The notes under the pieces: model-generated
Seen by the model: the letters and a program-made list of their open reading frames with translations, nothing else
Told to the model about the DNA's origin: nothing
The model's database searches: none
Translations under genes and position numbers: made by a program
Shown here: piece after piece, positions 18,670 to 38,253 of the stretch
Layout of the letters: each line of letters opens with the position of its first letter
How positions within the stretch are numbered: the first letter of the stretch is position 1
Assembly (NCBI RefSeq): GCF_001663815.1
Contig: NZ_CP016027.1
Location: 1,612,001 to 1,676,000 of the forward strand
Direction of reading: 5' to 3'
From: Halothiobacillus diazotrophicus
GTDB taxonomy: Bacteria; Pseudomonadota; Gammaproteobacteria; Halothiobacillales; Halothiobacillaceae
Length of the DNA stretch: 64,000 bases

Positions 18670-18853
18670 CATCTGCCGCAGGCCAATGACTTGCCTGCAC
18701 GCACACCGAGCCCAACGGTCTAAAGTTAATGTGTACGCTGCCGATACATATGGATCGACACAGCATCAGTCCTGATACACGCACACCCTTATTGCACCAC
18801 AGGAAGCCTGCGAACACACCATGCGACCCTAAGTAGAAACTGCACGATCAAGC

Positions 18854-21361
18854 ATGCACAAAAAGAAAAATAGAGCTGCACATGCCGCATGGCGCCGCAC
18901 GGGCGCATTCATTCTTCTGACTGCCGTCATCGCCGCCGCCCCGGCACAGGCTAATGACGAGTCCCCCGCACTGACGCAAGCCAGAACTCAAGCTGTCCAG
19001 GATGCCCGGAACGGCCACCTCGTGCGCGGGATCGCGACGCTGGAATCGCTCCATCGGACCCATCCCGACGATGCATTCGTGACTGCGGACCTGATCGTCC
19101 TGATGCGCCTTGCCGGGCAAAACGCCCAGCTTGCCAAGCTCACCGAACATACGGACCCCCGTACCATCCCAAACTATGCCGTTATCGACTGGGCACGCGC
19201 CCTTCGCGACAGCAAGGAATTCACTCGGGCACGCGGCATTCTCGCCCCCCGTTTGTCCGATCTGGGTCCCAAGGGGGACATACTGTATGCCATGATCACC
19301 GTTGAATCCGGCCCGAAACACCCGGCCGTTATCGCCTTACCCAAGACGAGTACGCCGGGGTTAAGTCCGACCGATCTGGCGGACATGGCCTATGTACAAC
19401 GCAAGGCAGGCGATCCCATTGAGGCATTGAAACTGGCCTATCTGGCCCTGAGTCGTGCCAACCAAAACCCGCATGCCTTCCGGGAACTGGTTTTTGCGCT
19501 ATCGGACAGTGGCGCGGCGAATCTGGCCTGGGAAAAGGCGCAGGAGCGTCCGTCGCTCTTCAACAATGACGCACTGAACCGACTGCGTGCCGACGTCGCG
19601 ACCGTGGAAATCCGAAATGCCGTCCATGAACGGCGACGTCTTGACGATGACTTCGACTATGCCCAGCGGGATATCCCCCTCAAGCGCGCGCTGAGCACCC
19701 TCAAGAAGAACCAGCAGCGCTTCGCAGAGGACAAACCGCAAGCGCTGCGCACCCAGTACGATCGGGTCTATGTCCTGCGCACACTGGAAATGATGCAGGC
19801 CGCCATCGACACATACGAATCATTGCCCCAAAAACCCGCGACGGCCACCAAAGCGAAGCGGATCGCCATCCCCAGCTACGTTCGGCGAGCGGCGGCCGAT
19901 GCTTATCTATATCGACATCACCCGCGAGAAGCCGCTGCGCTCTACCGGGAACTGATCGCGGAAAACCCCAAGGCCGATGTCAACCTATTCATCGCGCTGT
20001 ACTACGCCTATCTGGATAGCGAGCAATACGATCGGGCCGAGAAGATTCTGGCCACCATTCATCGAGTGACGCCGACCTGGCGTACCCGTCAGAAAACCCC
20101 GGGCCGCGTTGAAAACTGGGAGCGTCTCGATGTGGATCAACTCTGGGCGATGGATGCCGCCTACCGGAATCACGAGGACATTGCCTATGCGCGGATCAAC
20201 ATCCTGGTGGATCACGCCCCCCGCAACTCGGGGCTGTTGAACGCCAAAGCGACCATCGAACGCTGGCGCGGCTGGCCGGAGCAATCCCTGAAAACGACAA
20301 AACTGGCCCAGGCCTACGCCCCGAAAACCAAAGATACGCGGCTCAACCTAGCCGACAATGCCCGAGATCTCGAACATTTCAAAACCTGGGGCGAACAGAT
20401 CCGGGCCCTCAATCAAGACTTCCCGACGGACACCAGCATTCAGCGGAGCATGGCACAATGGCGCGACCGAAGCCGCCCCTCCATCAGCTCCGAATACACC
20501 ACGGGGCGCAGCAGAGGCAACAGCACCCTGGGCAATCCGGTGGTCGGCAACCGCGATCAGGAATGGCAAAGCCGACTCAACAGCCCTTGGCTGGCGAACG
20601 GCTGGCGCGCGTATATCGACCAACACTACCTGTGGTCCAGCTTCACCGATAGCAGCGAGCGATACAATCGCTACGGCGTCGGTGCGGAATGGCGTGGCAA
20701 CCGGAAACATGCCTGGGTCAGCATCAACAATGACCAACTCACCGGCCGACACGTCGGGGTTGAGGCCGGCTGGAGCCAGTGGCTGGACGACCACTGGCAA
20801 TACGGGATCAGTGGCAACACCTATTCCCTGAGCACCCCTTTGCGCGCCAAACAGGCCGGCCTCTCCGGAAAATCACTGAATGCGAAACTCAACTGGCGTC
20901 AGGACGAAACGCGCGAAGCCTATGCCGGGCTGAGCGTACTGTCCATCTCAGACGGCAACAAACGCACGGATCTCGCTGCCGGGTTCTCCCAGCGCCTGTT
21001 TGCCAGCCCGCACCATATCACCACCGGCGGCGTGGACGCCTTTGCGGAGCACAATAGCCGGCCGGGCGGCAGCTATTTCAACCCCGCCAACAGCGAAAGC
21101 CTGTCGGTTCGGTTGGCGCACAAATGGACCACCTGGCGAGACTACGATCGCTCATTCACACAATATGCAAAAATTTCAACCGGCTATGGATGGCAAGCCG
21201 GTTACGGCGGCGCCCCCATGACCGATATTTTTTACGAACACATCTGGAAACTGAACCGCACCTGGGATCTGCACTATGGTGTCGGCTGGGGAAGCAACGT
21301 CTATGATGGCGGGCGCGAACAGCGACTCTATGGTGTTCTCGGATTTGGAGGCGTGTTTTGA
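18854..21361 (+). CDS. pgaA: Poly-beta-1,6-GlcNAc outer-membrane export porin
   Basis: Exports partly deacetylated poly-N-acetylglucosamine across the outer membrane. It is 835 residues. A signal peptide (about 1-34, ending in AAPAQA) precedes a periplasmic superhelix of tetratricopeptide-like repeats (about 40-530), which in the family guides the polymer. A C-terminal beta-barrel (about 540-835) begins near SSEYTTGRSRGN and is rich in alternating aromatic strands such as WRAYIDQHYLWSS. It is the first gene of a gap-free pgaABCD operon and overlaps pgaB (TGATG). The ribosome site before the ATG is weak. Confidence 0.9.
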   Translation: MHKKKNRAAHAAWRRTGAFILLTAVIAAAPAQANDESPALTQARTQAVQDARNGHLVRGIATLESLHRTHPDDAFVTADLIVLMRLAGQNAQLAKLTEHTDPRTIPNYAVIDWARALRDSKEFTRARGILAPRLSDLGPKGDILYAMITVESGPKHPAVIALPKTSTPGLSPTDLADMAYVQRKAGDPIEALKLAYLALSRANQNPHAFRELVFALSDSGAANLAWEKAQERPSLFNNDALNRLRADVATVEIRNAVHERRRLDDDFDYAQRDIPLKRALSTLKKNQQRFAEDKPQALRTQYDRVYVLRTLEMMQAAIDTYESLPQKPATATKAKRIAIPSYVRRAAADAYLYRHHPREAAALYRELIAENPKADVNLFIALYYAYLDSEQYDRAEKILATIHRVTPTWRTRQKTPGRVENWERLDVDQLWAMDAAYRNHEDIAYARINILVDHAPRNSGLLNAKATIERWRGWPEQSLKTTKLAQAYAPKTKDTRLNLADNARDLEHFKTWGEQIRALNQDFPTDTSIQRSMAQWRDRSRPSISSEYTTGRSRGNSTLGNPVVGNRDQEWQSRLNSPWLANGWRAYIDQHYLWSSFTDSSERYNRYGVGAEWRGNRKHAWVSINNDQLTGRHVGVEAGWSQWLDDHWQYGISGNTYSLSTPLRAKQAGLSGKSLNAKLNWRQDETREAYAGLSVLSISDGNKRTDLAAGFSQRLFASPHHITTGGVDAFAEHNSRPGGSYFNPANSESLSVRLAHKWTTWRDYDRSFTQYAKISTGYGWQAGYGGAPMTDIFYEHIWKLNRTWDLHYGVGWGSNVYDGGREQRLYGVLGFGGVF

Positions 21362-23511
21362 TGGAACGACGGCACTTTCTCAAATCCCTGGTGGCGACCC
21401 TCACCGTCACCGCCACACCAGGGGGGTGGGCGGGAACCCCGAAGACGGGTGCTGCGGGCACGCCGGCACCACTGACGACCGTTCAAATCCCACCGGGGCA
21501 ATTCGTCACCTTGTGCATGCACGACGTACGGGACGATGTCGCGCCCGGTGTCGATAACGATCCCTACGCCATGAACACCCGGCGCTTAGCGGCACTATTC
21601 GACTGGATGAAGGTACACGACTGGCACCCCGTATCCCTTCAACGGATCGTGGACGCGCACGCCGGCAAGACTGACTTGCCGAAGAATGCCGTCCTGCTTT
21701 CCTGGGATGATGGACTGGCCAGCATCTATTCACGGGTGTTCCCGCTCCTGAAGGCATTTCAGTACCCGGGGCTGTTCGCTCTGGAAACCGACTGGCTGAC
21801 CCGCGTTCACCGAGGCTTATCGGTCGACTATCAGGGTGAGGGATTCGCCGCCTCGGTCACGGACACCCAAAAGGCCACCGACGCCCTCAAAATCGATGAG
21901 GCACAAGCCCGAGCGTCGAATAATCTCAAAGCCCCCAACCGAGTGTTGTACAACGGCTCCGAGCGCGGCGCCAAAGGGTTTATTTCCTGGGCTCAGGCTC
22001 GGGAAATGCAAGCCTCTGGCCTGGTGGAGTTCGCCACGCATACGCACGATTTGCACCATGGTATTTTGGCCAACCCCCAGGGAAACGTCGAACCCGCAGC
22101 GATTACCCGGCAGTACCTTGCGCCACTCAAACGCTATGAAACCGACCGTGAGTTTCATACTCGGATTCTGACCGATCTGCGCCAGAGCGCGGCCATCATT
22201 CAACGGGAAATCGGCGTACGCCCCCGCGCCATCGTCTGGCCCTACGGCGCGATGAATGCCGAGGTCGAAGCCATCGCCCGCGAAGCCGGCCTGCCCATTT
22301 CCTTCGGCCTGGGTGACCGACGTCTGGATAGCCGAACCCAAGCGCTGTCGTCTTTTGGCCGTCTTCTGGTGATGGATGACCCGACCCCCGTATCCATTGA
22401 GGCGCAGGTTTCCCAGTCCATCACCCCGGTGCCGGGGATCGAACGGGCGGTACAGGTCGACATGGACTACATCTACGATCCCGATCCAGTCCGAACGAAC
22501 AGCAATCTGGGCAAACTGCTCGACCGAATCAAGGCACTCAAGGTACGCACAGTCTATCTACAGGCCTTTGCCGACCCCGACGGCTCGGGCAACCCCAAGG
22601 CGCTGTATTTCCCCAACCGGGTGCTCCCCATGCGGGCCGACCTGTTCAACCGCGTGACGTGGCAACTCCGTACCCGGGCCGGCGTACGGGTATTTGCCTG
22701 GTTGCCGCTTCTGGCCTATCAATTGCCGGATACGGCGCAACAGGATCGACTATCCGTCAAAATTCAGGACGCCGAAGGCAAAATCGTACCCGCTCGACGC
22801 GACTACCATCGATTGAGCCCCTTTTTGCCGGAAACGCTCGCCCTCGTTGGCGATATCTATGCCGACCTGGGCAAAAGCATGACCGGCATCTCGGGGCTGT
22901 TGATTCACGATGACGCCTATCTCGCGGAAGACGAGGACGCTACCGCCCTGAGCCCGGAAGCCCGTTGGCCGGGCACCGATCGCCCCGTGGGTCAAACGCC
23001 GCTCACGGCACGCCAGAAAACGGAAGCGCTGATCGCCTTCGGCGAAGCGGTGGCCGAACGCATGCGCTATTACACCAATGCAAGCAACCCGTTTATCGTC
23101 GCACGGAATCTGTACGCCCGTGTCGTGCTCGACCCCGAGGCGGAAAGTCGCTTCGCGCAAGCCTTGGATCCCTTCCTAGCCGCCTACGATGGGGTCGCCT
23201 TGATGGCGATGCCCTACCTGGACGGCACTACGGAACCCCCGGAGCGGTGGTTGCGGCAACTGGCGGAAACCGTTGCGCGCACGCCGACGGGCCTACAGAA
23301 AGTCGTCTTCGAGCTCCAAACCAAAAACTGGACGACCGGCGCCTGGATTCCCGGCGCGACGCTCAAAAACTGGATGCAGGAACTCACCCGGATGGGCGCG
23401 GTGAACCTTGCCTATTACCCGGATGACTTTCTGACCGACCACCCTCCTTTCACGCCCACCTTCGAAGGAATCAGCCTGACTGAGTTCCCGTACTACCGGT
23501 TGAAGCACTAA
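21361..23511 (+). CDS. pgaB: Poly-beta-1,6-GlcNAc N-deacetylase with glycoside-hydrolase-like domain
   Basis: Periplasmic enzyme that partly deacetylates the polymer before export. It has 716 residues. The N-terminal polysaccharide deacetylase domain shows CMHDVRDDVAPG, the NodB-type LLSWDDGLASIYSRVFPLL, and the metal-site HTHDLHHG. The C-terminal PgaB hydrolase-like domain (from about residue 365) starts VDMDYIYDPDPVRTNSNLGKL. Unlike the enterobacterial lipoprotein, the start MERRHFLKSLVATLTV has a twin-arginine RRxFLK pattern and no lipobox cysteine, suggesting Tat export. The ATG at 21361 overlaps the pgaA stop, and pgaC overlaps its stop by one base. Confidence 0.93.
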   Translation: MERRHFLKSLVATLTVTATPGGWAGTPKTGAAGTPAPLTTVQIPPGQFVTLCMHDVRDDVAPGVDNDPYAMNTRRLAALFDWMKVHDWHPVSLQRIVDAHAGKTDLPKNAVLLSWDDGLASIYSRVFPLLKAFQYPGLFALETDWLTRVHRGLSVDYQGEGFAASVTDTQKATDALKIDEAQARASNNLKAPNRVLYNGSERGAKGFISWAQAREMQASGLVEFATHTHDLHHGILANPQGNVEPAAITRQYLAPLKRYETDREFHTRILTDLRQSAAIIQREIGVRPRAIVWPYGAMNAEVEAIAREAGLPISFGLGDRRLDSRTQALSSFGRLLVMDDPTPVSIEAQVSQSITPVPGIERAVQVDMDYIYDPDPVRTNSNLGKLLDRIKALKVRTVYLQAFADPDGSGNPKALYFPNRVLPMRADLFNRVTWQLRTRAGVRVFAWLPLLAYQLPDTAQQDRLSVKIQDAEGKIVPARRDYHRLSPFLPETLALVGDIYADLGKSMTGISGLLIHDDAYLAEDEDATALSPEARWPGTDRPVGQTPLTARQKTEALIAFGEAVAERMRYYTNASNPFIVARNLYARVVLDPEAESRFAQALDPFLAAYDGVALMAMPYLDGTTEPPERWLRQLAETVARTPTGLQKVVFELQTKNWTTGAWIPGATLKNWMQELTRMGAVNLAYYPDDFLTDHPPFTPTFEGISLTEFPYYRLKH

Positions 23512-24833
23512 TGGGTTCCTTTTTCATTCAGATGGATTTGATCTTTTCATTGAGCGCAATGACAATGAGAGACATCTTTTTCGGATACGCCTTCTACTAC
23601 CCGCTGATCATGGCGTGGATGTGGATGATCGGCGGTCTGTGGTACTTCCTGCGCTGGGAAAACCGCTACGACCTCGGCCCGGACTACCCGCCGCCGGTCA
23701 GCAAGCAACCCCCGGCCAGCATTCTGATTCCCTGCTTCAATGAGGAGCAGAACGTTCGGGATACCATGGCCTATGCCCTGGCGACGGACTATCCGGACTT
23801 CGAGGTCATCGCCATCAACGACGGCTCCAAGGACCGTACGGCGGAAATACTCGACGAACTCGCGGAAATCCACCCGCGCCTGCGGGTGATCCACCTCACC
23901 ACCAACCAGGGCAAGGCCATGGCCCTGCGTGCCGGAGCGATCGCCGCGCGCAACGAATTCCTGATCTGCATCGACGGCGACGCACTGCTCCACCCTGAAG
24001 CCGTGGCATGGATGATGGTGCACCTGGCCTCGGGCAACCGGGTGGGCGCCGTCACGGGCAATCCGCGCATCCTGAACCGCTCCACCCTGCTCGGCAAGCT
24101 TCAGGTGGGCGAATTCTCGTCCATCATCGGCCTGATGAAACGCGCCCAGCGCGTCTACGGCCGACTGTTCACCGTCTCCGGCGTCATCGCGGGCTACCGA
24201 CGCACGGCCCTGCACCGAATCGGTTACTGGTCCGAAGTGATGATTACCGAGGACATCGACATTTCCTGGCGACTGCAGATGGATCATTGGGACATCCGCT
24301 ACGAACCCGACGCCCTCTGCTACATCTACATGCCGGAAACCTTCACGGGACTCTGGAAACAGCGCCTGCGCTGGGCCCAGGGCGGTGTGGAGGTGCTCAT
24401 GCACCATGGACGCGACCTGCTGATCTGGCGCCGTCGGCGGTTCTGGCCGGTCGCCATGGAATACCTGGCCTCGGTGGCCTGGGCCTACATCATGCTCACC
24501 ATCATCATCCTGTACGTGATCGGTCGTTTCGTCCCATTGCCCCCCGCATGGCACATCGATACCCTGCTGCCTCAATGGAACGGCGTCATTCTGGGGGTCA
24601 CCGCCCTGACCCAGTTCGCCATCAGCCTGATGATCGATCGTCGATACGAACCAAAGAAGCGTTTCTTCAGAAACTATTTCTGGATCATCTGGTATCCCCT
24701 GGCTTTCTGGTTGCTGACCCTCTTCACCACCATCGTGGCCGTCCCCAAGACACTGCTCAAGAAGCGCGGCCTGCGTGCGCGCTGGGTCAGTCCGGATCGT
24801 GGAATCCGTGCCGATGGGTCTAACGAACCATGA
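23511..24833 (+). CDS. pgaC: Poly-beta-1,6-GlcNAc synthase (GT2)
   Basis: Inner-membrane processive glycosyltransferase that polymerises UDP-GlcNAc. It is 440 residues. Membrane helices lie at about 23-45 and 325-415. The GT2 core holds PASILIPCFNEEQN, AINDGSKDRT, ICIDGDALLHPEA, the base in MITEDIDISWRLQ, and the processivity motif QRLRWAQGG. It starts at the ATG within the TAATG overlap with pgaB. PgaC works with PgaD, whose gene overlaps downstream by four bases. In E. coli, c-di-GMP binding to PgaC and PgaD stimulates synthesis; a cyclic-dinucleotide response here is inferred. Confidence 0.95.
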   Translation: MGSFFIQMDLIFSLSAMTMRDIFFGYAFYYPLIMAWMWMIGGLWYFLRWENRYDLGPDYPPPVSKQPPASILIPCFNEEQNVRDTMAYALATDYPDFEVIAINDGSKDRTAEILDELAEIHPRLRVIHLTTNQGKAMALRAGAIAARNEFLICIDGDALLHPEAVAWMMVHLASGNRVGAVTGNPRILNRSTLLGKLQVGEFSSIIGLMKRAQRVYGRLFTVSGVIAGYRRTALHRIGYWSEVMITEDIDISWRLQMDHWDIRYEPDALCYIYMPETFTGLWKQRLRWAQGGVEVLMHHGRDLLIWRRRRFWPVAMEYLASVAWAYIMLTIIILYVIGRFVPLPPAWHIDTLLPQWNGVILGVTALTQFAISLMIDRRYEPKKRFFRNYFWIIWYPLAFWLLTLFTTIVAVPKTLLKKRGLRARWVSPDRGIRADGSNEP

Positions 24834-25378
24834 GCCACCCTGTGCCGCGCCCGCGCATCCCGGAAATCATCCATCGTCCCGATCTCGTGACCGCATCCCG
24901 AAAAGGGGTCATGGCCTTGATTGCCACTATCGGCTGGATGATCTGGCTCTATCTAATTTCTCCGTTGTCCGCCCTGTTCGCCTGGTGGTTCGGCTACGAT
25001 CGAATGAATCTCTTCGTGCTTTCGGATCCGGCTCATACCATCCGAACACTCATGCTCTACGCCATGGTCATTGCCGCTGGCGGCGCACTCTTCATTTTAT
25101 GGGCGGTCTATAACTGGCTGCGTTTTCGCCGAGTGGATCGGCGGCGGGTCCCCGAAACCGCAACGGAGGCGGATATCGCGTCCGCCTTCGCCATCCCGAC
25201 TCAGTCCGTTCTCGACGCCAGGGGCGGCAAGGTACTGGCCTTCAATTTCGATGATCACGGTCAGATCATGGACATCGAGACGACCCGGGCGCTCTCAGAG
25301 AAAACACCGGCTGGAACACCCGCTTCCAAGCCGCTCGACAACGCCGCCAGCGAGACCATCCCCCATGCCTGCAAGTGA
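24830..25378 (+). CDS. pgaD: Poly-beta-1,6-GlcNAc synthesis accessory protein
   Basis: Small membrane partner of PgaC, 182 residues. Two membrane helices (VMALIATIGWMIWLYLIS and LMLYAMVIAAGGALFILWAVYNWL) follow a short IPEIIHRPDLVTASRKG start typical of PgaD. The region after the second helix carries RFRRVDRRRVPETA. A longer-than-usual acidic, Ala/Pro-rich C-terminal tail of about 60 residues is not obviously conserved. ATGA overlap with pgaC places it as the last gene of the operon. Confidence 0.88.
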   Translation: MSHPVPRPRIPEIIHRPDLVTASRKGVMALIATIGWMIWLYLISPLSALFAWWFGYDRMNLFVLSDPAHTIRTLMLYAMVIAAGGALFILWAVYNWLRFRRVDRRRVPETATEADIASAFAIPTQSVLDARGGKVLAFNFDDHGQIMDIETTRALSEKTPAGTPASKPLDNAASETIPHACK

Positions 25379-25704: not shown

Positions 25705-27537
<1,833 letters not shown>

Positions 27538-27570
27538 TCCCTCGGGCGGGCATCCATCAGCCGCCCAGCC

Positions 27571-27605
27571 GCAGACAATCCCCTCCCGGGTGATTGTCTG
27601 CTTTT
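27571..27605 (+). terminator. Rho-independent terminator of the cellulase gene
   Basis: A perfect 10-base stem, GCAGACAATC and GATTGTCTGC, is followed by TTTT, 34 bases after the cellulase stop. This separates the cellulase transcript from the cellulose operon downstream. Confidence 0.88.
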
Positions 27606-28106
27606 CTCCCCTGTGCCGCAGGCACGGACCATCTCCCCGCGGTCAAATCAATCCCGACTTGGCATTTTCTCACTCCGGCAAGAAACGCAGGCAGGCCATC
27701 CGATATACCTGCCGATTTACGGCCTGATTATCTGAGTACGACCCACAACCACCCCAATAACACATGAATTTAAGCTCGCCCAGTATCGAAATTTCCCGGG
27801 TCTGTAAATTCATGACAATTTTGTCAGCCCCTCGAAGATCCGATTGTCACACCCGCCAGACAGGCTTTTTGACTGCCTCGAACAGCATCTGAGTCGTCAG
27901 GCACGGACCTCGTGCCACCCTATTCATAAAAAATAGCAAGAACCGTAAAAACAAATATATAAACACGGATTCAGGGGTAGAAATTGCATGAAACCCCGAG
28001 AATTTCGGCCTTGGACGCAGCCCCGACCAATCGACATGGCCCGTAATTTGCTTTTAAGCATTTACTGGTTTTTTCACATTAAATATTGAAACGGGATGTT
28101 CCATTA
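27606..28106 (+). promoter_or_regulatory. Regulatory region of the cellulose operon
   Basis: No gene is visible in this 500-base stretch. It holds the shared 12-mer AAATTCATGACA (27806-27817), which runs into an inverted repeat TGACA-ATTT-TGTCA (27813-27826). A GGCACG/CGTGCC palindrome lies at 27900-27916, and an AT-rich segment at about 27925-27967 could bend or bind IHF. A sigma-54 promoter match lies at 28037-28052. The order upstream site, AT-rich bend, -24/-12 promoter is typical of enhancer-dependent promoters. Confidence 0.55.
28037..28052 (+). promoter_or_regulatory. Sigma-54 (-24/-12) promoter of the bcs operon
   Basis: TGGCCCGTAATTTGCT matches the sigma-54 consensus TGGCACG-N4-TTGCW at all but one defined base, with GG and GC exactly ten bases apart. 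It ends 54 bases before the first bcs start codon. The match is seen directly; use by RpoN and an enhancer-binding protein is inferred. Confidence 0.7.
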
Positions 28107-29216
28107 ATGCTGAATCTATTTTCTCGCTGGGGAAAAAAGACCCCGAATCCGGCCGCACTGAAACGCGTCGACCCCCTGGAAGATGTACAACGGCTCTATA
28201 ATGAACTAAACCTCGACCCGTCAGGCTATCACCGCTTCGACACTACGCCGCTTCCCGAGACGAGTCTCGCGCCCAAACCGGAAAAGACCGAAATCGAAGC
28301 CGTGCAGACCGAGCCGGAAACCACAACGGCCGCACTGACGACGCCTGAACCAGAAACCCCGGAAATCGCACCGGCGCCCGTGACGCCCCCCCTTGAAACG
28401 CCAGCCAGCGCCGCTGTCAACCCAGCCAAGCCAATTCCGGACACCAAACCCAAGAGTTTTTCCCTCCTATCCCACTTCGCGCGAAATACCCTGCGTACCG
28501 CCAGCATCGACGCGCCGGTCGTGGGATTTGCCTCCTTTTCCGGGGGTGTCGGCAAAAGCACCCTGAGTGCGGCACTGGCAACGAGTCTCCTATCCCGCGA
28601 TCAACGCTGTCTCGTCCTCGGACAAACCCTGTTCTCACCCTTGCCCTACTATCTCGGCTGGAAGACCCAGGAGCAGGACGAATCTGAAAACACGGTCGTC
28701 CATATCAACCAGCCCATCGAAGCAATCGGTCAATCGCTGAACCTGTTCATCAGCGAAACCGGCAGCCGCCATCTGGTGGCAGAGGCGCGGAATACGGTAC
28801 CCAAGGCTGATCTGATTCTGTACGACCTCGAGGCCTCCCCCCACATCATCGATGCCTTCGCATCCATCGATCTGTTGATCGTACCGCTTCGACCCGACAT
28901 CAATGCCCTGATCATCATCAACCGGATCGAGCAGGCACTATCCCAGATGGAAGCCACCCCCAGACTGGGCGTCTTCTACGTCCTCAACCAGTTCGATGAA
29001 GGGAAGAGCCTGCACCGGGAAATCCGGCAGACCCTCAAAACGCGGCTGGGTGACCGGCTGCTGGATGTCGTGATTCCCTGGGACGATTCGGTTCAGGAGG
29101 CCCTGGCCAACGGCCGGTCGCCGCAAGCCCATCAACCGGACAGCCCCTTTGCGCGTGCTGCCGATTCGTTGTCTCGCTGGTTGGAACAAACAGCATCCCT
29201 TCCCGCCCGAGCCTGA
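28107..29216 (+). CDS. bcsQ: BcsQ-type ParA/MinD-like ATPase fused to an N-terminal BcsR/BcsP-like segment
   Basis: Likely positions or supports the cellulose synthase at the inner membrane. The 369-residue protein has three parts. Residues about 22-44 read PLEDVQRLYNELNLDPSGYHRF, resembling the short BcsR/BcsP motif. A Pro/Thr/Glu-rich spacer covers about 45-115. A MinD/ParA-like domain covers about 135-365. Its P-loop FSGGVGKST keeps the Walker lysine but has Ser in place of the signature lysine of KGG. The usual switch aspartate (LLIDxD) is absent (LVLGQT), and the later strand is ILYDLEAS. I used the ATG at 28107 rather than a TTG at 28086. It heads the operon, 22 bases before bcsAB. Confidence 0.82.
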   Translation: MLNLFSRWGKKTPNPAALKRVDPLEDVQRLYNELNLDPSGYHRFDTTPLPETSLAPKPEKTEIEAVQTEPETTTAALTTPEPETPEIAPAPVTPPLETPASAAVNPAKPIPDTKPKSFSLLSHFARNTLRTASIDAPVVGFASFSGGVGKSTLSAALATSLLSRDQRCLVLGQTLFSPLPYYLGWKTQEQDESENTVVHINQPIEAIGQSLNLFISETGSRHLVAEARNTVPKADLILYDLEASPHIIDAFASIDLLIVPLRPDINALIIINRIEQALSQMEATPRLGVFYVLNQFDEGKSLHREIRQTLKTRLGDRLLDVVIPWDDSVQEALANGRSPQAHQPDSPFARAADSLSRWLEQTASLPARA

Positions 29217-29238
29217 TGCCCTCACCGAGGCGATTGAA

Positions 29239-32200
29239 ATGAAAAGAAACACCCGATTCATGGGCCTGGACGATCTCGTCCTGGTCGTCATCTTTGTGTT
29301 TGGCGCCATCATGCTGTTGCCCATGATCGTCGTCCCCTTCGATTGGCAGGATCAGGCCTGGCTCGGCTTCGGATTCGTGCTGCTGGCCGTCCTGGTGAAC
29401 CGCCTGTTCAAGCCACACTGGATTACCTATTTCCTGATGGCGCTCTCACTATTCGCCACTGCACGCTATGCCTGGTGGCGAACCACGGAAACCCTGGGAT
29501 TCAACTCGCCGGATTATCACTGGTACGATCTGACGATCTCCCTCATCCTGTATGCAGCCGAAGTTTATGCCTGGATCGTGCTTGTTCTGGGCTTCCTGCA
29601 AACCGCCGCGCCGCTCAAACGCAAACCGCTGAGTCTGCCGCCGAAGATCGATCAATGGCCGTCGGTCGACGTCTACATCCCGACCTACAACGAACCGATC
29701 GAAGTCGTACGCCCCACCGTACTGGCCGCCATGCAGATGGACTGGCCGCACGACAAGCTCAACGTCTGTCTGCTGGACGACGGCGGACGTGAGGAATTCC
29801 GCCAGTTTGCCGAGGAAGTGGGCGTCACCTACATCATTCGCGACGAACACAAGCATGCCAAGGCGGGCAACCTGAATCACGCCATGACGAAGACCCATGG
29901 CGAATACATCGCCATTTTCGACTGCGACCACGTCCCCACGCGCTCATTCCTGCAAATGTCGATGGGCTGGTTCCTCAAGGATGAGCATCTGGCCCTGGTA
30001 CAAACGCCGCACCACTTCTACTCGCCCGATCCATTCGAGCGGAATCTGAAGGTCTTCAAGGAAGTCCCCAACGAAGGCGAACTCTTCTACGGGATCGTTC
30101 AAGATGGCAACGATCTCTGGGATGCCACCTTCTTCTGCGGCTCCTGCGCGGTCATTCGCCGCGAAGCACTGGACCAGATTGGCGGGATCGCCATAGAAAC
30201 CGTCACGGAAGATGCCCATACATCGCTGAAGCTCCAACGACTCGGCTGGCGTTCGGCCTACATTAACCTTCCGCAGGCCGCTGGCCTGGCCACGGAAAGT
30301 TTTTCCGGCCATGTCGGTCAACGCGTGCGCTGGGCACGGGGCATGGCGCAGATCATGCGCGTGGACAACCCGCTGCTCGGTCGCGGCCTGCAATTCATGC
30401 AGCGCCTCTGCTACCTGAACGCAATGCTGCACTTCTTTTTCGCGCTGCCCCGGCTGATCTTCCTGACCGCACCGCTGTTGTTCCTGTACTTCGGCATCTA
30501 CGTGATCAATGCCTATGCATTGACCATTGCCGCTTACGCGCTGCCTCACCTCGCCCTGGCCATGATTGCGAACTCGCGGGTACAGGGAAAGCATCGCAAC
30601 TCGTTCTGGAACGAGGTCTACGAAACCGCGCTGGCGCCCTACATCCTGCTACCCACATTGTTGGCCGTCATCAATCCCAAGCTCGGCAAGTTCAACGTCA
30701 CCGCGAAGGGGGGACTGGTTCAGAAGGACTACTTCGACAGGAAGATCGCTCGACCCTTCGTGATCCTCTTCCTCCTGAACGTGGGTGGCTTGATCGCCGC
30801 AGCCATCCGCTGGTGGGGACACCCCAATGTCGACATTCCCACCCTGGTCATGACCACCGCGTGGACGGTCTACAACCTCGCCATGATCCTGGTCGTGCTC
30901 GGCGTGAACTGGGAGACCAAGCAGGTGCGCAAGAACGTCCGGATACCGATTTCCTTGCCTGCCCGGGTTATCCGCGAAGATCAATCGATCGTCATGGCCA
31001 AAACCGTCGACATATCCGAAGGCGGTGGCCGCGTGATCACAGCCGAACCGATCCCGGAAGGCGAAAACCTGATCCTGGCCTTCCTGTACGACGGCGAGGA
31101 GTACGCCTTGCCCATCAGAAAACTACCATCGCAAGGGGACGTCATGCGGTTTCAGTTCAGAGAAATGAATCATCTGCAGTTCGGCTATCTGGTTCGCGTG
31201 ATTTATGGACGCGCGGACGCCTGGCTCGGTTGGGGCGAGGGTCGTCGCGTCGATCGGCCCTGGCGCAGCCTGGTTCAGATCAGCTTCCTGGCACTGGTTG
31301 GCTTGACCCGCCTGGTACGCGGTGCCTTCGGGAAGGAGGGCGGCCACGGCGAGGCCGCCGAAACCACCCCAGTACCGAAAAACCCTGCGCCGGAACCGAA
31401 ACTCGAGGATACGACTGATACAGCCACAGTCTTACCACCCATGGCCGGCCGCGTAACTTCAGTCATACTCGCCGGGATCTGCGCCCTCACGCTCTGGGCT
31501 CAGATGCCGCAACCGGCCCTGGCGGCAAATGAAGTGCCAGACCAGCCGACGACCACATCGACCAAGGGACAGTTCAACGAACACTGGGCCGTAGGGACGA
31601 GCGGTGCGGTGTCCGGACTGAAGCTTCATGGTGTCGATGAAATTCAATCCCTGGATCTGTCCATCCCACCGGATCGTGTGGTATCGGCCGCCCAGATGAC
31701 GTTGACCTATACGATCTCGCCCGGTCTGCTGCCGCGAATCAGCCAGATCAACGTCCTATTCAACGATCATGTCGTCCGTTCGTTCCCCATCGAGGCTGGC
31801 GATGACAAGGGCCTGCCCCATCAGGTGAGCTTCCCGATCGATGCGAACCTGTTCACCGAGTACAACCACGTCGGCTTCCAGTTGATCGGTCACTATACCG
31901 ATCAGTGCGAGGACCCGATGAACTCCACCCTGTGGGCGACCATATCCCCCAAGACGGAGATCGCGATTTCGGGTCTGCGCCTGCCGATCCAAAAAGATCT
32001 CCGTTTCCTGCCCGCACCGTTTTTCTACAAGTCCGCCGAACACAGGCTGAACCTGCCGTTCGTATTCGCGAGCGATACCGATACGAGCTCCGCCCAGGCA
32101 GCTGGCATCGTGGCCTCCTGGTTCGGCACCCTGGCGAGCTACCGAGGCAGTAATTTCCCCGTTAACATCCGCCGGATCCCCGAACAGGGGAACGCCGTAG

Positions 32201-33666
32201 TCTTCGCACTCAAAGGGCAACCTTTACTGCCCAACGAGCCGAAAATCGAGGGCGCAACGGTTGCCGTGACGGCTAACCCGAACGACCCTTACGGTACGGT
32301 GCTGTGGGTGCTTGGCAGCAGTGACGAGGAGTTGATTCAAGCCGCCCAGAACCTGGTGCTTGGCGCGAACCTGCTCAATGGCGAGATCGCCCATGTCGGT
32401 CACGTGAACCTGCCGCCGATTCCCGCTCCGGACAGCGCGCCGCGCTGGGTGCCGAGTACCGGTCCGGTCCGTCTGGATGCGCTGTCCGACTGGACGCCCA
32501 TGAGCGTCAAGGGAACGGGGACCCTGCCCTTCACCTTCTATCTCCCACCCTCGCTCTTTTACTGGAACCGCGACGGCGTGCCTCTGAATCTGCACTATGG
32601 CTACAACTCGATTCCCCTGGCCCAGAATTCCAGCCTGAACCTGGAAGTGAACGGTCAGTTCATCCGCTCCTATCCCCTGAAGGAAGGCGACAAAGCCAAG
32701 CAGGAGCAACATGTATCCCTGACGTTCCCGCAAACCACGCTGTCGCCCTACGCCAACCTGATGAAAGGCACGTTCTACTTCGTACCGATCAAAGGGAAAT
32801 GCACAGAAACGAATGTAAAAAATGCCGCAGGGTCGATTTATCCCGACTCCACCATCGACATCAGCGACATTCCGCATTACGCCCGGTTGCCCGAACTGTC
32901 CATATGGATCAATGGCGGTTATCCCTTCACCCGATTTGGCGATCTCTCCCGCACCGCGGTCGTGTTGCCACAGAAACCCGACATCGACCTGTTGCAGACT
33001 TATCTGAACGTGATGGGCCTGTTCGGCCAGTTCACGGGCATGCCCGGCTTCCGTGTCAAAGTCGTGAATTTTGGCGACGAGTCTTCCGTGGCCGATCGCG
33101 ACCTGCTGACGATGAGCACCCCCGCCGAACTGTCCGCACAAAGTTGGCAGACGCAGCTTCCCGTTTCCTTCGAGAACCAGCACCTGACCATCAACGACGC
33201 CCTGGGCTGGTTCAGCGACGTCCGCTGGCATCTGCCCTGGTGGCACGTTGAAGATGCCCGCTTCGGCAAGGCCGCGCTGGGCAAGATCGTCAACAATGGC
33301 GTCGTCCCGCGGGCCCTGATACAGGAAACCATCTCGCCGTTCCACCCGGAACGCATTCTGCTGAGCCTGAGTGCAGGCACGGACTCCGGATGGCAGGGAC
33401 TTCAGGAAACACTGGATACCCCCGCCCTGCGGACCAATGTCTTCGGCGGCCTGTCGATCGTGCATGGCGACAAAGTGAGCTCCTTCGTACTGGATCGCCC
33501 GCATTACTACGCCGGCACGCTCTCCTGGTGGGACTGGATGCGCTTTCACCTCAGCCAGCACCCCTGGATGATCTGGCTGGGTGTCGTCGTTTTGGCCCTG
33601 ATTCTCTCCGGGCTGGTTGGCGTCCTGCTCCAGCATCGTGCCCGCAAGCGATTAGCCACGTCGTGA
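29239..33666 (+). CDS. bcsAB: Cellulose synthase, catalytic BcsA fused to periplasmic BcsB
   Basis: Single 1475-residue chain that should polymerise UDP-glucose and pass the glucan through the inner membrane. The BcsA part has N-terminal helices and a GT2 core with DDGG (about 179), FDCDHV (about 227), VTEDAHT (about 323) and QRVRW (about 360). More helices and a PilZ domain with RKNVR (about 564) and DISEGGG (about 591) follow, for c-di-GMP activation. A low-complexity acidic linker (about 700-735) and a helix or former signal segment (about 738-755) lead into a BcsB-type carbohydrate-binding region, closing with a membrane helix (about 1443-1465). The ATG at 29239 has GAGG upstream. Such fusions are known from Komagataeibacter. 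Confidence 0.95.
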   Translation: MKRNTRFMGLDDLVLVVIFVFGAIMLLPMIVVPFDWQDQAWLGFGFVLLAVLVNRLFKPHWITYFLMALSLFATARYAWWRTTETLGFNSPDYHWYDLTISLILYAAEVYAWIVLVLGFLQTAAPLKRKPLSLPPKIDQWPSVDVYIPTYNEPIEVVRPTVLAAMQMDWPHDKLNVCLLDDGGREEFRQFAEEVGVTYIIRDEHKHAKAGNLNHAMTKTHGEYIAIFDCDHVPTRSFLQMSMGWFLKDEHLALVQTPHHFYSPDPFERNLKVFKEVPNEGELFYGIVQDGNDLWDATFFCGSCAVIRREALDQIGGIAIETVTEDAHTSLKLQRLGWRSAYINLPQAAGLATESFSGHVGQRVRWARGMAQIMRVDNPLLGRGLQFMQRLCYLNAMLHFFFALPRLIFLTAPLLFLYFGIYVINAYALTIAAYALPHLALAMIANSRVQGKHRNSFWNEVYETALAPYILLPTLLAVINPKLGKFNVTAKGGLVQKDYFDRKIARPFVILFLLNVGGLIAAAIRWWGHPNVDIPTLVMTTAWTVYNLAMILVVLGVNWETKQVRKNVRIPISLPARVIREDQSIVMAKTVDISEGGGRVITAEPIPEGENLILAFLYDGEEYALPIRKLPSQGDVMRFQFREMNHLQFGYLVRVIYGRADAWLGWGEGRRVDRPWRSLVQISFLALVGLTRLVRGAFGKEGGHGEAAETTPVPKNPAPEPKLEDTTDTATVLPPMAGRVTSVILAGICALTLWAQMPQPALAANEVPDQPTTTSTKGQFNEHWAVGTSGAVSGLKLHGVDEIQSLDLSIPPDRVVSAAQMTLTYTISPGLLPRISQINVLFNDHVVRSFPIEAGDDKGLPHQVSFPIDANLFTEYNHVGFQLIGHYTDQCEDPMNSTLWATISPKTEIAISGLRLPIQKDLRFLPAPFFYKSAEHRLNLPFVFASDTDTSSAQAAGIVASWFGTLASYRGSNFPVNIRRIPEQGNAVVFALKGQPLLPNEPKIEGATVAVTANPNDPYGTVLWVLGSSDEELIQAAQNLVLGANLLNGEIAHVGHVNLPPIPAPDSAPRWVPSTGPVRLDALSDWTPMSVKGTGTLPFTFYLPPSLFYWNRDGVPLNLHYGYNSIPLAQNSSLNLEVNGQFIRSYPLKEGDKAKQEQHVSLTFPQTTLSPYANLMKGTFYFVPIKGKCTETNVKNAAGSIYPDSTIDISDIPHYARLPELSIWINGGYPFTRFGDLSRTAVVLPQKPDIDLLQTYLNVMGLFGQFTGMPGFRVKVVNFGDESSVADRDLLTMSTPAELSAQSWQTQLPVSFENQHLTINDALGWFSDVRWHLPWWHVEDARFGKAALGKIVNNGVVPRALIQETISPFHPERILLSLSAGTDSGWQGLQETLDTPALRTNVFGGLSIVHGDKVSSFVLDRPHYYAGTLSWWDWMRFHLSQHPWMIWLGVVVLALILSGLVGVLLQHRARKRLATS

Positions 33667-33682
33667 CGGAGCGCCTCGCCTC

Positions 33683-34837
33683 ATGCGCCACCATCCGTTT
33701 CGGATTCTGCTGCTCATTTCCGCCCTGTCGGCCATGCTGACAGGCTGCGGCAAATCGGCCCAGCAGACGTGGACCGATCGCTTCACGCACCTCTGGCAGG
33801 CGTATCAGGTCACGTTCATTTCCCCGGAAGGACGAATCGTCGATGCGAGTCAACCGGATCAACGCAGTACTTCCGAAGGGCAGGCCTACGCCCTTTTCTT
33901 CGCCCTGGTGGCCAATGATCCGACCCGTTTCGCACAGATACTGAACTGGACCCGGCTCAACCTGGGCGCCGGGGATATGAACACGCATCTGCCCGTCTGG
34001 CTCTGGGGCCACCGGGCCGATGGATCCTGGGGCGTCATCGACGGCAATACCGCGTCCGATGCGGACCTGTGGCTGGCCTACATCCTGTTGCAGGCCGGGC
34101 GACTCTGGCACCAGTCCGCCTACACCGAGACGGGACGCCGGATGGTCAGCCTGATTGCCCAACGGGAAGTGGTCGACGTCGCCGGCACGGGGCCGGTGCT
34201 GCTCCCGGGGACGCGGGGCTTCGGTCCCGATGACCAGGGCTGCGTCACCGTCAACCCGAGTTACACCCCCCTGCCGGTCGCGACCTACATGGCGCACGAA
34301 TTCGGCCCACCCTGGCAATCGATCGCAAAGCGGCTGCCCCAACTCATCCGTGCCACAACTGAACGGGGATTCGCCGCCGACTGGGCTCAGGCCTGCCCGG
34401 ACAAACCCCTGACGGTGCCCGCGCCGGGGCACCCGCCGACGGGCAGCTACGACGCCATCCGCGTCTACCTGTGGGCGGGACTCGCCGCCCCCGGCACGCC
34501 GGGACAGAAACCGCTGATCGACAGCGTATGGGGCATGGCCAGCTATCTTGCCGGCCATGAGGCACCGCCTGAGCGCGTCAACCTGTCAACCGGCGACGCG
34601 GAAAACACCGGCCCCATCGGATTTTCCGCCGCGCTCCTGCCCTATCTCGAAGCCCAGCACATGAAGCAGCGTTTCCGGCAGCAGGCGGAACGGGTGACGG
34701 CAGGACAGCAACCCTCGGGCCTGATGGGCACCCCACCCACCTACTACGACCAGAATCTCGCGTTGTTCGCCCTGGGGCATCTGGCCGGTTTATACACATT
34801 CGATGAACATGGAACTCTTGAGGTGCATTGGCAATGA
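33683..34837 (+). CDS. bcsZ: Cellulose-operon endoglucanase (GH8)
   Basis: Periplasmic beta-1,4-glucanase that trims cellulose during secretion. It has 384 residues. The N-terminus (LLLISALSAMLTGC) ends in a lipobox-like LTGC, so it may be a lipoprotein, whereas many BcsZ proteins are soluble. GH8 motifs are the acid E65 in STSEGQAYALFFAL, WLWGHRADGSWGVIDGNTASDADLWLAY with D126/D128, and a later NPSYTPLPVATYMA. It lies 16 bases after bcsAB and overlaps bcsC (ATGA). Confidence 0.94.
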   Translation: MRHHPFRILLLISALSAMLTGCGKSAQQTWTDRFTHLWQAYQVTFISPEGRIVDASQPDQRSTSEGQAYALFFALVANDPTRFAQILNWTRLNLGAGDMNTHLPVWLWGHRADGSWGVIDGNTASDADLWLAYILLQAGRLWHQSAYTETGRRMVSLIAQREVVDVAGTGPVLLPGTRGFGPDDQGCVTVNPSYTPLPVATYMAHEFGPPWQSIAKRLPQLIRATTERGFAADWAQACPDKPLTVPAPGHPPTGSYDAIRVYLWAGLAAPGTPGQKPLIDSVWGMASYLAGHEAPPERVNLSTGDAENTGPIGFSAALLPYLEAQHMKQRFRQQAERVTAGQQPSGLMGTPPTYYDQNLALFALGHLAGLYTFDEHGTLEVHWQ

Positions 34838-37800
34838 AAAATCATATTTGGTCACCGATACTGCTGGCCGGCGTATTAGGGATGAGCATGCCGACTATCG
34901 CGTACACGGCCGATCAGGGCGCCGCCATTGATCTGTTGCTGCATCGTGCCGACTACTGGAAAAGCAACGGCCGCATGGACCTGGCTGTTCAGAACTGGCA
35001 ACTCGTGCTGCAATCGAACCCGAACCAGCCGGAGGCACTCGCCGGGCTGGCACGGGAAGCCGCCACCCAGGGCCACACCCAAGAAGCGGACACCTATCTG
35101 CAACGCTTGAAGCAGGTTACGCCGGCCAACCCCGCTATCGCCGACATCGAGGGACTGCTGGCGCTCGGTCCCAACTCCGGCCCTCGACTGGCCAAGGCCG
35201 CACAGCTTGCTGCCGACAAGCGCTACCCCGAGGCCCTGGCGGCCTACAACGACGTATTCAACGGGCCACCCCCGCCCAAATGGGCCCAAACCTACTTTCA
35301 GGTCATGGTTCAGACGCCGGGTGGACAGAACCGGGCCGTGAAGGAACTGACCACGCTTGCCCAGGATCATCCCGACGAACCAGCCTACCGATTGATGCTG
35401 GGGAAGGTACTTACCTACGATACGGCCACACGAGGCCGCGGCATCGACCTGCTCGCGGACATGAGCCGAAAATCCACCGGCACGACCGCCAGCGCCGCAC
35501 GCGACGACTGGCACCAGGCGCTGGTATGGATGGGCGACGATCCCGCCGCGATCCCCTATCTCCGTTCGTATCTCGCCAAGTACCGGGATCGCTCTCTGAG
35601 CGATCGCCTGCACAAGCTCGAGAGCCAGAATGCGGCACGGAAGGTTCAGCAGGCTCGTGGACAGGCCCTGGGCAATGCCTACCGAACCATGAATCAGGGA
35701 CAACTGGATCTCGCCCGGACTCGCTTCGCGAAGATCCTCGAAAAGGAACCGAACAACGTCAAGGCCCTGGAAGGTCTGGGCGATGTCGCGTTCAAGGACA
35801 AGCAATATGACGACGCGGCACGGTACTACGCCCAGGCTCGCACGTTCTCGAAATCCCGGGAGGAGACCCGTCGACTCGATACGGCGACCCAGAAAGCCTA
35901 TTTCTGGTCCTGGATGCAGTCCGGCAACCAGAATGTTGAAGCAGGGCAACTGCCCACCGCTGCCAATGCCTACCGCCAGGCGCTGAGCATCAGTCCCGGG
36001 GACACGCTGGCCACCCAGGCGCTGGCGAACGTCTATCTGAAAATGGGCCAGACCCGTCAGGCGACGGACCTCTATGCCGCACTCACCCGAAAAAACCCGA
36101 ACAACGCGGATGCCTGGCTCGGCTACCTGCAAACGCTCAATCAGGAGAACCGTCCACGGGAAGTCATCGCCCTGACCCATAAAATGCCGGCAAGCGTCTC
36201 CGTCAAACTGGAGCGCAATCCGGATTACGTCACCGCTCTGGCGAATGCGGAAGCCAGCCACGGAGACACCCGAAAGGCGCTGAGCCTGATCCAGCGCGCC
36301 ATGGCCTCGGCCAAGCCCGCCCAGAGAACGGATCTGGCGATCCAGGAAGGCTGGCTGCTGTACAAGACGAAAGACGATGCCGCGCTCTACGCCCTGATCA
36401 TGGACCTGCTGAGCCAGCCGGATGCCTTGTCACCGTCTCAAGCCAACGAAGTACGCAGCCTGTACCTCACGGCCGCGCAGCGGGAAGCCCAGACGGCACT
36501 GAAGAACGGCGATCCGTCCGCTGCCGACGCCATCGTGGCGGGTCTGGGCACGCAATACCCGGATGACCCCGGTGTTGCCCGCGTTCAGGCCAACCTGCTG
36601 GTGCAACAACGCAAGTTCGACGAGGCCGAATCCATCTATCGCCAGATCGGGCCAGGCGACACGCCGGGTGACGTGCAGTCGGCGGTTGGCGCCGCACTCG
36701 CCAACGGCGACGAAAAACAGGCCAAGCGTTGGCTCCAGGCCGGCCGCACCAGCCATCCCGACAATGTGCCGCTCAAGGAAATGCAGGCCAAGCTCGATCT
36801 GCAGAACGGCGACGATCGTTCGGCCAAGGCCGCCCTGCGTAGCGCACTGGCCAGCCTGCCGCGCGCCGCCAGGTATGCGCGTCCCTCTACCGGCTCGTCC
36901 GTGGCCTATGCCCAATATCCGTTTGCCGCCGGAATGCCGAGTGCGCCAGGATCGTCGGAACAGGAAGATGCGGGCACGGCGGCTTATCCGTTCAGCGCTG
37001 GCGCCCGTCATTCCGCGGGCACTCCGACCGAAACGGCAACGCCCGAGCAGACGGGTATCGCGACTGCGGACGTATCACGTACACGGGCACGTCTTCAGGA
37101 GCAACTGGACGGCATCGATGCGCACATGAGTTCGGAAGTCGGCGGCAACATCTATGGCCGTTCCCGCAGCGGTACCTCGGGCCTCGACCAGTTCGCCCTG
37201 GCGGGCTCGCAGGTCGAGGGCAGCGTCGCTCTGGGCTACAACACGCGCATGACCGCTCGCCTGACGCCGATCCGCATCGATGCGGGCAGCCTGAGCGCGG
37301 ACTCGGCCAAACTGTACGGAACGGGCCCGGTCTATGGTGGAAAAGCCGGCGGCGCATCGGCCGAATCCGGCGTCGGCCTGACCGTCGGCGTCAACAGCGC
37401 CAACTACGGCGTCATGCTGGGCACCTCGCCCCAGGGGTTCACCGTCAGCAGTCTGATCGGCCAGCTCAATCTGCACCCGCAGGGCAGCCCCGTCGGCCTG
37501 AGCCTGTTCCGGGAAAGCGTGACCGACAGCGTACTGTCCTTTGCCGGCGCGAAGGACCCGCAGACGGGTCAGACCTGGGGCGGCGTATTCCGCAACGGCC
37601 TGGGCCTGAACTTCGGTGTGGCCGATCAGGATTCAAGCGTCTTCGGCAGTCTGAAACTGGCGTATCTCAAGGGCACGAACGTCAAGAGCAATACCCAGGT
37701 GGAAGGCAACTTCGGAGCGGACTGGTCGGTATTCGACCGCGAAAGCAATCGCATCAAAATCGGATTCGATGCCCTCTCCATGTTCTATGCCCACGATTCG

Positions 37801-38253
37801 AGCCACTTCACCTATGGGCAGGGCGGCTACTTCAGCCCCAGCTACTACTTCCGCCCGGCGGTCACCATGAAATGGACCGGGTCGGCCGGAGACCGTCTTG
37901 GCTACAACGTCGAAGGGTTCATGGGCTGGCAGACCTTCCATCGCGACAGCAGCGCCTACTTCCCCGAGGATAGCGCCTTGCAGACGGCAGCCGGAAATCC
38001 CTACTTCCCGGCCAGCACCGTCAGTGGCGTGGGATACGGCCTGAAGCTCAATCTCGGCTATGCGGTCACACGGAACTTGACCATGGGCGGATTCCTGGCG
38101 ACCGACAACAGTCAGGATTACAGCAACGTCTCGGCGGGCCTCCAAATCAAGTACTGGTTCTCTCCGCAGATCATCCACTCTGAAAAACCCTTGCTTCAAC
38201 GCAATTGGCTCATGGGGGTGGATTCGGGTGATACCAGTCCGGGCGGCGAATAA
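34834..38253 (+). CDS. bcsC: Cellulose outer-membrane export protein
   Basis: Exports cellulose through the outer membrane. It is 1139 residues. A signal peptide (about 1-26) is followed by a periplasmic TPR solenoid (about 30-690) with units such as ALEGLGDVAFKDKQYDDAARYYAQA and ANVYLKMGQTRQATDLYAAL. A Ser/Thr/Pro-rich joint (about 690-755) leads to the BcsC-type C-terminal barrel (about 760-1139), with SGTSGLDQFALAGSQVEG and the final QIKYWFSP segment. The ATG at 34834 overlaps the bcsZ stop; an in-frame TTG six bases earlier is less likely. No bcsD, E, F or G genes accompany it, so this is a minimal synthase-export operon. Confidence 0.94.
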   Translation: MKNHIWSPILLAGVLGMSMPTIAYTADQGAAIDLLLHRADYWKSNGRMDLAVQNWQLVLQSNPNQPEALAGLAREAATQGHTQEADTYLQRLKQVTPANPAIADIEGLLALGPNSGPRLAKAAQLAADKRYPEALAAYNDVFNGPPPPKWAQTYFQVMVQTPGGQNRAVKELTTLAQDHPDEPAYRLMLGKVLTYDTATRGRGIDLLADMSRKSTGTTASAARDDWHQALVWMGDDPAAIPYLRSYLAKYRDRSLSDRLHKLESQNAARKVQQARGQALGNAYRTMNQGQLDLARTRFAKILEKEPNNVKALEGLGDVAFKDKQYDDAARYYAQARTFSKSREETRRLDTATQKAYFWSWMQSGNQNVEAGQLPTAANAYRQALSISPGDTLATQALANVYLKMGQTRQATDLYAALTRKNPNNADAWLGYLQTLNQENRPREVIALTHKMPASVSVKLERNPDYVTALANAEASHGDTRKALSLIQRAMASAKPAQRTDLAIQEGWLLYKTKDDAALYALIMDLLSQPDALSPSQANEVRSLYLTAAQREAQTALKNGDPSAADAIVAGLGTQYPDDPGVARVQANLLVQQRKFDEAESIYRQIGPGDTPGDVQSAVGAALANGDEKQAKRWLQAGRTSHPDNVPLKEMQAKLDLQNGDDRSAKAALRSALASLPRAARYARPSTGSSVAYAQYPFAAGMPSAPGSSEQEDAGTAAYPFSAGARHSAGTPTETATPEQTGIATADVSRTRARLQEQLDGIDAHMSSEVGGNIYGRSRSGTSGLDQFALAGSQVEGSVALGYNTRMTARLTPIRIDAGSLSADSAKLYGTGPVYGGKAGGASAESGVGLTVGVNSANYGVMLGTSPQGFTVSSLIGQLNLHPQGSPVGLSLFRESVTDSVLSFAGAKDPQTGQTWGGVFRNGLGLNFGVADQDSSVFGSLKLAYLKGTNVKSNTQVEGNFGADWSVFDRESNRIKIGFDALSMFYAHDSSHFTYGQGGYFSPSYYFRPAVTMKWTGSAGDRLGYNVEGFMGWQTFHRDSSAYFPEDSALQTAAGNPYFPASTVSGVGYGLKLNLGYAVTRNLTMGGFLATDNSQDYSNVSAGLQIKYWFSPQIIHSEKPLLQRNWLMGVDSGDTSPGGE

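Follow-up and report, generated by a model that had tools for sequence, protein, structure and literature searches.

The cellulose operon bcsQ-bcsAB-bcsZ-bcsC of Halothiobacillus diazotrophicus is very probably preceded by a sigma-54 promoter, as judged from the quality of the match, its position, the presence of rpoN and of bacterial enhancer-binding protein (bEBP) genes, and the company that the element keeps genome-wide. The upstream DNA further points, with moderate confidence, to bcs as a target of the PilSR/sigma-54 system, with PilR as the most likely activator.

Genomic context of the bcs operon

The window analyzed is a stretch of 64,000 nucleotides (C1:1612001-1676000) within a single-contig genome of 2.91 Mb. 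It carries pgaABCD (18854-25378, with pgaB and pgaC assigned by eye), a cellulase gene and the bcs genes (28107-38253), arranged in one row. The cellulase, a GH5 enzyme with CBM2 domains, is encoded between pgaABCD and bcs, and its gene ends at 27537. The bcs operon lies on the forward strand and comprises bcsQ, its first gene (28107-29216, ATG at 28107), a bcsA-bcsB fusion with a PilZ domain (29239-33666), bcsZ (GH8, 33683-34837) and bcsC (34834-38253, start uncertain). In BcsQ, the P-loop domain is preceded by ∼130 additional N-terminal residues (28107-28510); the orthologue from genome G288 has this extension too, and the first part of the extension may resemble BcsR.

A terminator-like hairpin with a T-rich tail is located 3' of the cellulase gene on the forward strand (27571-27608). 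The 61-nt stretch that contains it folds at -26.6 kcal/mol (z -7.2); a simple terminator scan gave no match at this hairpin. Because such a hairpin follows the cellulase gene, bcs probably has its own promoter within the next 500 nt.

Sigma-54 element upstream of bcsQ

A first-pass annotation had proposed a sigma-54 site in this gap, and the sequence observation was confirmed. The -24/-12 element TGGCCCG-TAAT-TTGCT (TGGCCCGTAATTTGCT, 28037-28052, forward strand) has its GG and GC exactly 10 nt apart and is separated by 54 nt, as first claimed, from the bcsQ ATG at 28107. It differs at one position from TGGCACGN4TTGCW, while 73 of the 74 matches in the window differ at two or three. Loose matches to this consensus are rarer in the window than in shuffled sequence (74 versus a shuffle mean of 106.6), and therefore only the quality of the bcs match is unusual. 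With a weight matrix of approximate frequencies, TGGCCCGTAATTTGCT scored 17.2 bits, the top of the window (runner-up 14.9), a score never equaled on the forward strand when the gap 27538-28106 was resampled 300 times under a first-order Markov model. Transcription would be predicted to start near 28063.

Genome-wide matches place the element in good company. At least five exact matches to TGGC[AC][CT]GN4TTGC[AT] are found among the matches listed, which cover 100 of 144 sigma-54 places in the genome (72/72 forward and 28/72 reverse), so that further exact matches may exist on the reverse strand. All five are intergenic and lie 48-76 nt upstream of a called start codon, ahead of pilA, bcs, two genes that resemble fixA and dctP, and a fifth gene without a name; the last is less sure, as cruder gene calls place its site (L032) inside a 102-aa ORF. 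Only 4.3% of positions would qualify by location (18,608 of 428,620 in the window and 11 other stretches of the same genome), and for this reason the exact matches observed look like promoters, bcs among them. Among one-mismatch sites with loci, 9 of the first 25 listed are promoter-positioned; two of the one-mismatch sites, L052 and L055, duplicate each other.

It is quite unlikely that the element matches by chance and that bcs, like other bcs operons, depends on a sigma-70-type promoter or one of another kind. A scan of 27500-28200 found no sigma-70-type site, against a chance expectation of 0.7, and four exact forward matches in 2.9 Mb translate into a probability of ∼0.0008 in 569 nt. A weak promoter could hide in the AT-rich gap. 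The PilR-type box described below is further support for the promoter. A precedent for sigma-70 does exist in Pseudomonas syringae, whose wss cellulose operon is, like bcs here, tied to a bEBP-family protein; FleQ-controlled transcription of wss is sigma-70 dependent and involves a FleQ site, whereas bcs is preceded by a sigma-54 element, with no FleQ site upstream (PMC10083355).

Two further sets of sigma-54-like sites were noted elsewhere in the genome. Divergent sites ∼180 nt apart, at C1:319863 (reverse) and C1:320057 (forward), each precede a called gene, one of which is amine-oxidase-like by eye. Two sites recur with identical sequence in C1:194358-195157 and C1:210530-211329, in inverted order and with the same called gene downstream, which suggests an inverted duplication.

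RpoN and candidate activators

The genome encodes rpoN, and the search for enhancer-binding protein genes that had been proposed as a check returned ten strong bEBP genes, nine of whose products show GAFTGA or a near variant. The PilR-type protein combines receiver, sigma-54 and HTH_8 domains, and its gene adjoins that of a PilS-type kinase; the NCBIfam PilR model is absent from the matches listed for it. The kinase gene, upstream of pilR, encodes the PilS membrane domain PF25323 (84.6 bits versus a cut-off of 27). Another bEBP (C1:1277302-1278858) carries the VpsR domain PF20161 (38.8 bits versus a cut-off of 23.7). The other bEBPs are presumably NtrC-, FleQ-, NifA-, PspF-, DctD- or NtrX-like, names that we assign tentatively from neighboring genes.

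A putative PilR-type box shared with pilin promoters

A likeness between the bcs and pilA promoters of this genome, in the form of TGTCA/TGACA, was noticed by eye before any matrix was built. Pilin loci were then collected from 27 genomes of the family, and the 20 of 30 loci with a sigma-54 site of at least 12 bits were kept (two of the loci, L260 and L280, share one promoter), the ten others being dropped. TGTCA-N5-TGACA occurs exactly in 11 of these 20 promoters and within one mismatch in 13; it is absent at one mismatch in the remaining 7. A matrix was built on 12 unique boxes taken from other genomes, the pilA of H. diazotrophicus being excluded, and it recovered both boxes of that promoter (24.5 and 20.9). 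From what is known of pilA biology, we infer that the box of pilA promoters belongs to PilR.

The same matrix ranked TCTGTAAATTCATGACAAT, a predicted PilR-type box 236 nt before the bcs element (27801-27819, core 27803-27817, forward strand), first in the window, with a score of 17.3 against 11.4 for the next match. The score is inside the leave-one-out range of real boxes (12.8-26.1), and one core position of the bcs box is mismatched. The box also ranked first of 221,294 positions scored in stretches of the genome, pilA not among them (next 14.6), and the PilR-type box score at 28 other sigma-54-like sites of the genome reached at most 12.1. Resampling of the bcs upstream DNA equaled the score in 5 of 3000 cases, a chance of ∼0.01 after allowing for five kinds of motif and before counting the matching 42-bp register described next.

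The box starts at -236 at bcs and at -238 at pilA. In relatives, however, it is found anywhere from -36 to -325, and the equal distance is therefore suggestive only. The pilA promoter has a second box 42 bp further on, a spacing also seen in genome G005. At bcs, a left half-site in this register, ATTGTCAC (27843-27850, forward strand, at -194), is the strongest upstream of the operon; it has no right half, and its full-box score is -5.6. The G005 pilin promoter (L266) also carries, beside two PilR-type boxes, a VpsR-type box, TGTTTCAACAGTGATACA, of 22.7 bits at -69 of its sigma-54 site.

Two other upstream features of the first-pass annotation are present in the sequence. The inverted repeat placed about 210 nt upstream, TGACAA-TT-TTGTCA, lies at 27813-27826, and its left arm doubles as the right arm of the PilR-type box. 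A regulon for this repeat was rejected, since a genome search that allowed one mismatch found no copy but the repeat itself; a perfect dyad with 6-nt arms was also found in 14 of 18 other promoters examined, from neighbor sites picked by hand. The AT-rich possible bend corresponds to 27920-27966, which is 77% AT and lies between the PilR-type box and the element, and no match to an IHF site better than two mismatches was found in 27901-28060.

FleQ, NtrC, NifA and VpsR sites

The bcs upstream DNA was tested against five kinds of site, which cover only some of the ten bEBPs; for FleQ and NtrC general consensus sequences were used. Activation of a real sigma-54 promoter by another of the ten bEBPs is unlikely: all are encoded in the genome, but the best FleQ and NtrC matches upstream of bcs each have four mismatches, GTCA-N6-TGAC is absent, and no exact NifA site (TGT-N10-ACA) is found, although one has a single mismatch among its six bases. 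The FleQ-like control suggested earlier thus finds no counterpart upstream of bcs.

The VpsR-domain bEBP was the obvious guess, and its probable site could be defined. PF20161 is found in 35 of 369 genomes of the class, and many of the proteins retain GAFTGA and are encoded near strong sigma-54 sites. TGTWWC-N6-GWWACA lies within 300 nt of 16 of the 21 intergenic sigma-54 sites near genes for VpsR-domain bEBPs, a count that covers all 21 and replaces one of 18 hand-picked sites; with other gaps the controls gave 0-7 of 21, and intragenic sigma-54 sites gave 1 of 9. The box is often near -80 at these loci (L147, L178, L193, L195, L198, L201 and others). The box was not encountered in the literature text consulted. 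Seven C39-peptidase promoters of the family, that of H. diazotrophicus included, have a proximal VpsR-type box at -79 or -80, and in four of the seven the sigma-54 site scores only 8.7-13.6.

It is very unlikely that this VpsR-domain protein activates bcs from a real sigma-54 promoter and so links cellulose to the box-bearing C39-peptidase operon. In the protein PF20161 is above its cut-off and GAFTGA is intact, unlike in Vibrio cholerae VpsR, which is described as lacking it (PMC3162934). The C39-peptidase operon of H. diazotrophicus (L249:4435-7844, C1:1287934-1291343) lies ∼9 kb from the bEBP gene; its first called gene is preceded at 55 nt by a sigma-54 site, with boxes at -80 and -146, and six other genomes of the family show a similar box placement. 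At bcs, a match at -81 (TATATAAACACGGATTCA, 27956-27973) was reached by 1 of 49 control rows and has a P of ∼0.003 by matrix and 0.015 by consensus. This match scores 4.9 bits, however, with three mismatches to the consensus, versus 16.3-20.6 bits in the seven C39 promoters, which are the same seven that built the matrix. The best match anywhere upstream, at 6.1, was reached by 132 of 500 resamples. The box is thus clear in relatives and a poor fit at bcs, where the PilR-type box fits better, and the VpsR-like control suggested by the first-pass annotation is disfavored along with the FleQ-like one, while its sigma-54 promoter holds up by sequence.

The closest parallel on the VpsR side is Vibrio fischeri, where bEBP-family VpsR activates the bcsQ promoter; a VpsR-domain protein is also encoded here, but bcs has only the weak VpsR-type site (PMC11841056).

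Other bcs operons

BcsB had a match in 26 other genomes, and 17 of their bcs operons were examined, with approximate gene starts. In 16 of them the sigma-54 score was at most 10.6 bits, the exception being L311 with 13.2; this would also be expected if the element at bcs were a chance match. PilR-type scores were at most 11.9, except at L143 (14.4, within the range of real boxes), whose operon has no sigma-54 site. Since 16 of the 17 have no comparable sigma-54 site, the arrangement at bcs looks specific to the lineage, and conservation therefore gives it no support. The orthologous operon of G288 (BcsQ 38% identical) has no sigma-54 site (2.8 bits). Promoter conservation could not serve as a test: across 56 related genomes even the best matches to bcsQ were weak (at most 35% identity), and a scan of genome contigs gave only relatives of 28-35% identity.

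A proposed shared switch for pili and cellulose

The DNA itself shows the element and where it lies, the box and how well it matches those of pilA promoters, and the rpoN, pilS and pilR genes. From these a mechanism can be proposed in which 28037-28052 serves as the -24/-12 element driving bcsQ-bcsAB-bcsZ-bcsC. PilR, of the PilSR two-component system, would occupy the predicted box at 27801-27819 and perhaps also the half-site that follows at 42 bp. With the AT-rich stretch looped out, it would then activate the RpoN polymerase poised at the element, in the manner of pilA. A single transcriptional switch would serve both cellulose and type IV pili, with c-di-GMP still acting on the enzyme via the PilZ domain of BcsA. 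If true, one sensor system would be common to pili and cellulose.

Control of pilin promoters by RpoN and PilR is classical; in Azoarcus BH72 the transcription start was mapped 12 nt after the element, and PilSR/RpoN control is cited for the pilin of P. aeruginosa (PMC3262810). The bcs promoter resembles these systems in its -24/-12 element, its upstream box and the presence of PilS and PilR genes, and differs from them in that the target is a cellulose operon and the second box a half-site (PMC3262810).

In the literature consulted, bEBP-type proteins reach matrix operons, those for cellulose included, via sigma-70 promoters or through another regulator; sigma-54 is used at V. fischeri syp, which concerns another polysaccharide (PMC5552954, PMC4646962). 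In Burkholderia cenocepacia a matrix polysaccharide is likewise governed by RpoN and a bEBP, BerB, but RpoN acts there on berA, which activates bep, whereas the element here is at the biosynthesis operon itself (PMC5552954). The word "cellulose" is absent from the accessible text of two wide surveys of sigma-54 regulons (PMC3162934, PMC12316311). No paper describing a dedicated sigma-54 promoter for a bcs operon, or PilR control of one, was recognized in a literature search of partial coverage that included few subscription journals.

A broader reading can be advanced only tentatively. Here bcs would belong to the PilSR/RpoN regulon, and the kinase that monitors pilin would control cellulose as well, so that a single phosphorylation step would take the cell from attachment by pili to a matrix of cellulose. 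The GAFTGA-bearing VpsR-domain protein would add a further input, from the side of the surface proteins.

The best VpsR-type match of the window is found elsewhere, ahead of the pga genes. The short intergenic gap upstream of pgaA, in which no sigma-54 site of at least 9 bits was found, contains AGCATCAGTCCTGATACA at 18762-18779, 75 nt before pgaA; its 13.5 bits were reached by 114 of 20,000 resamples.
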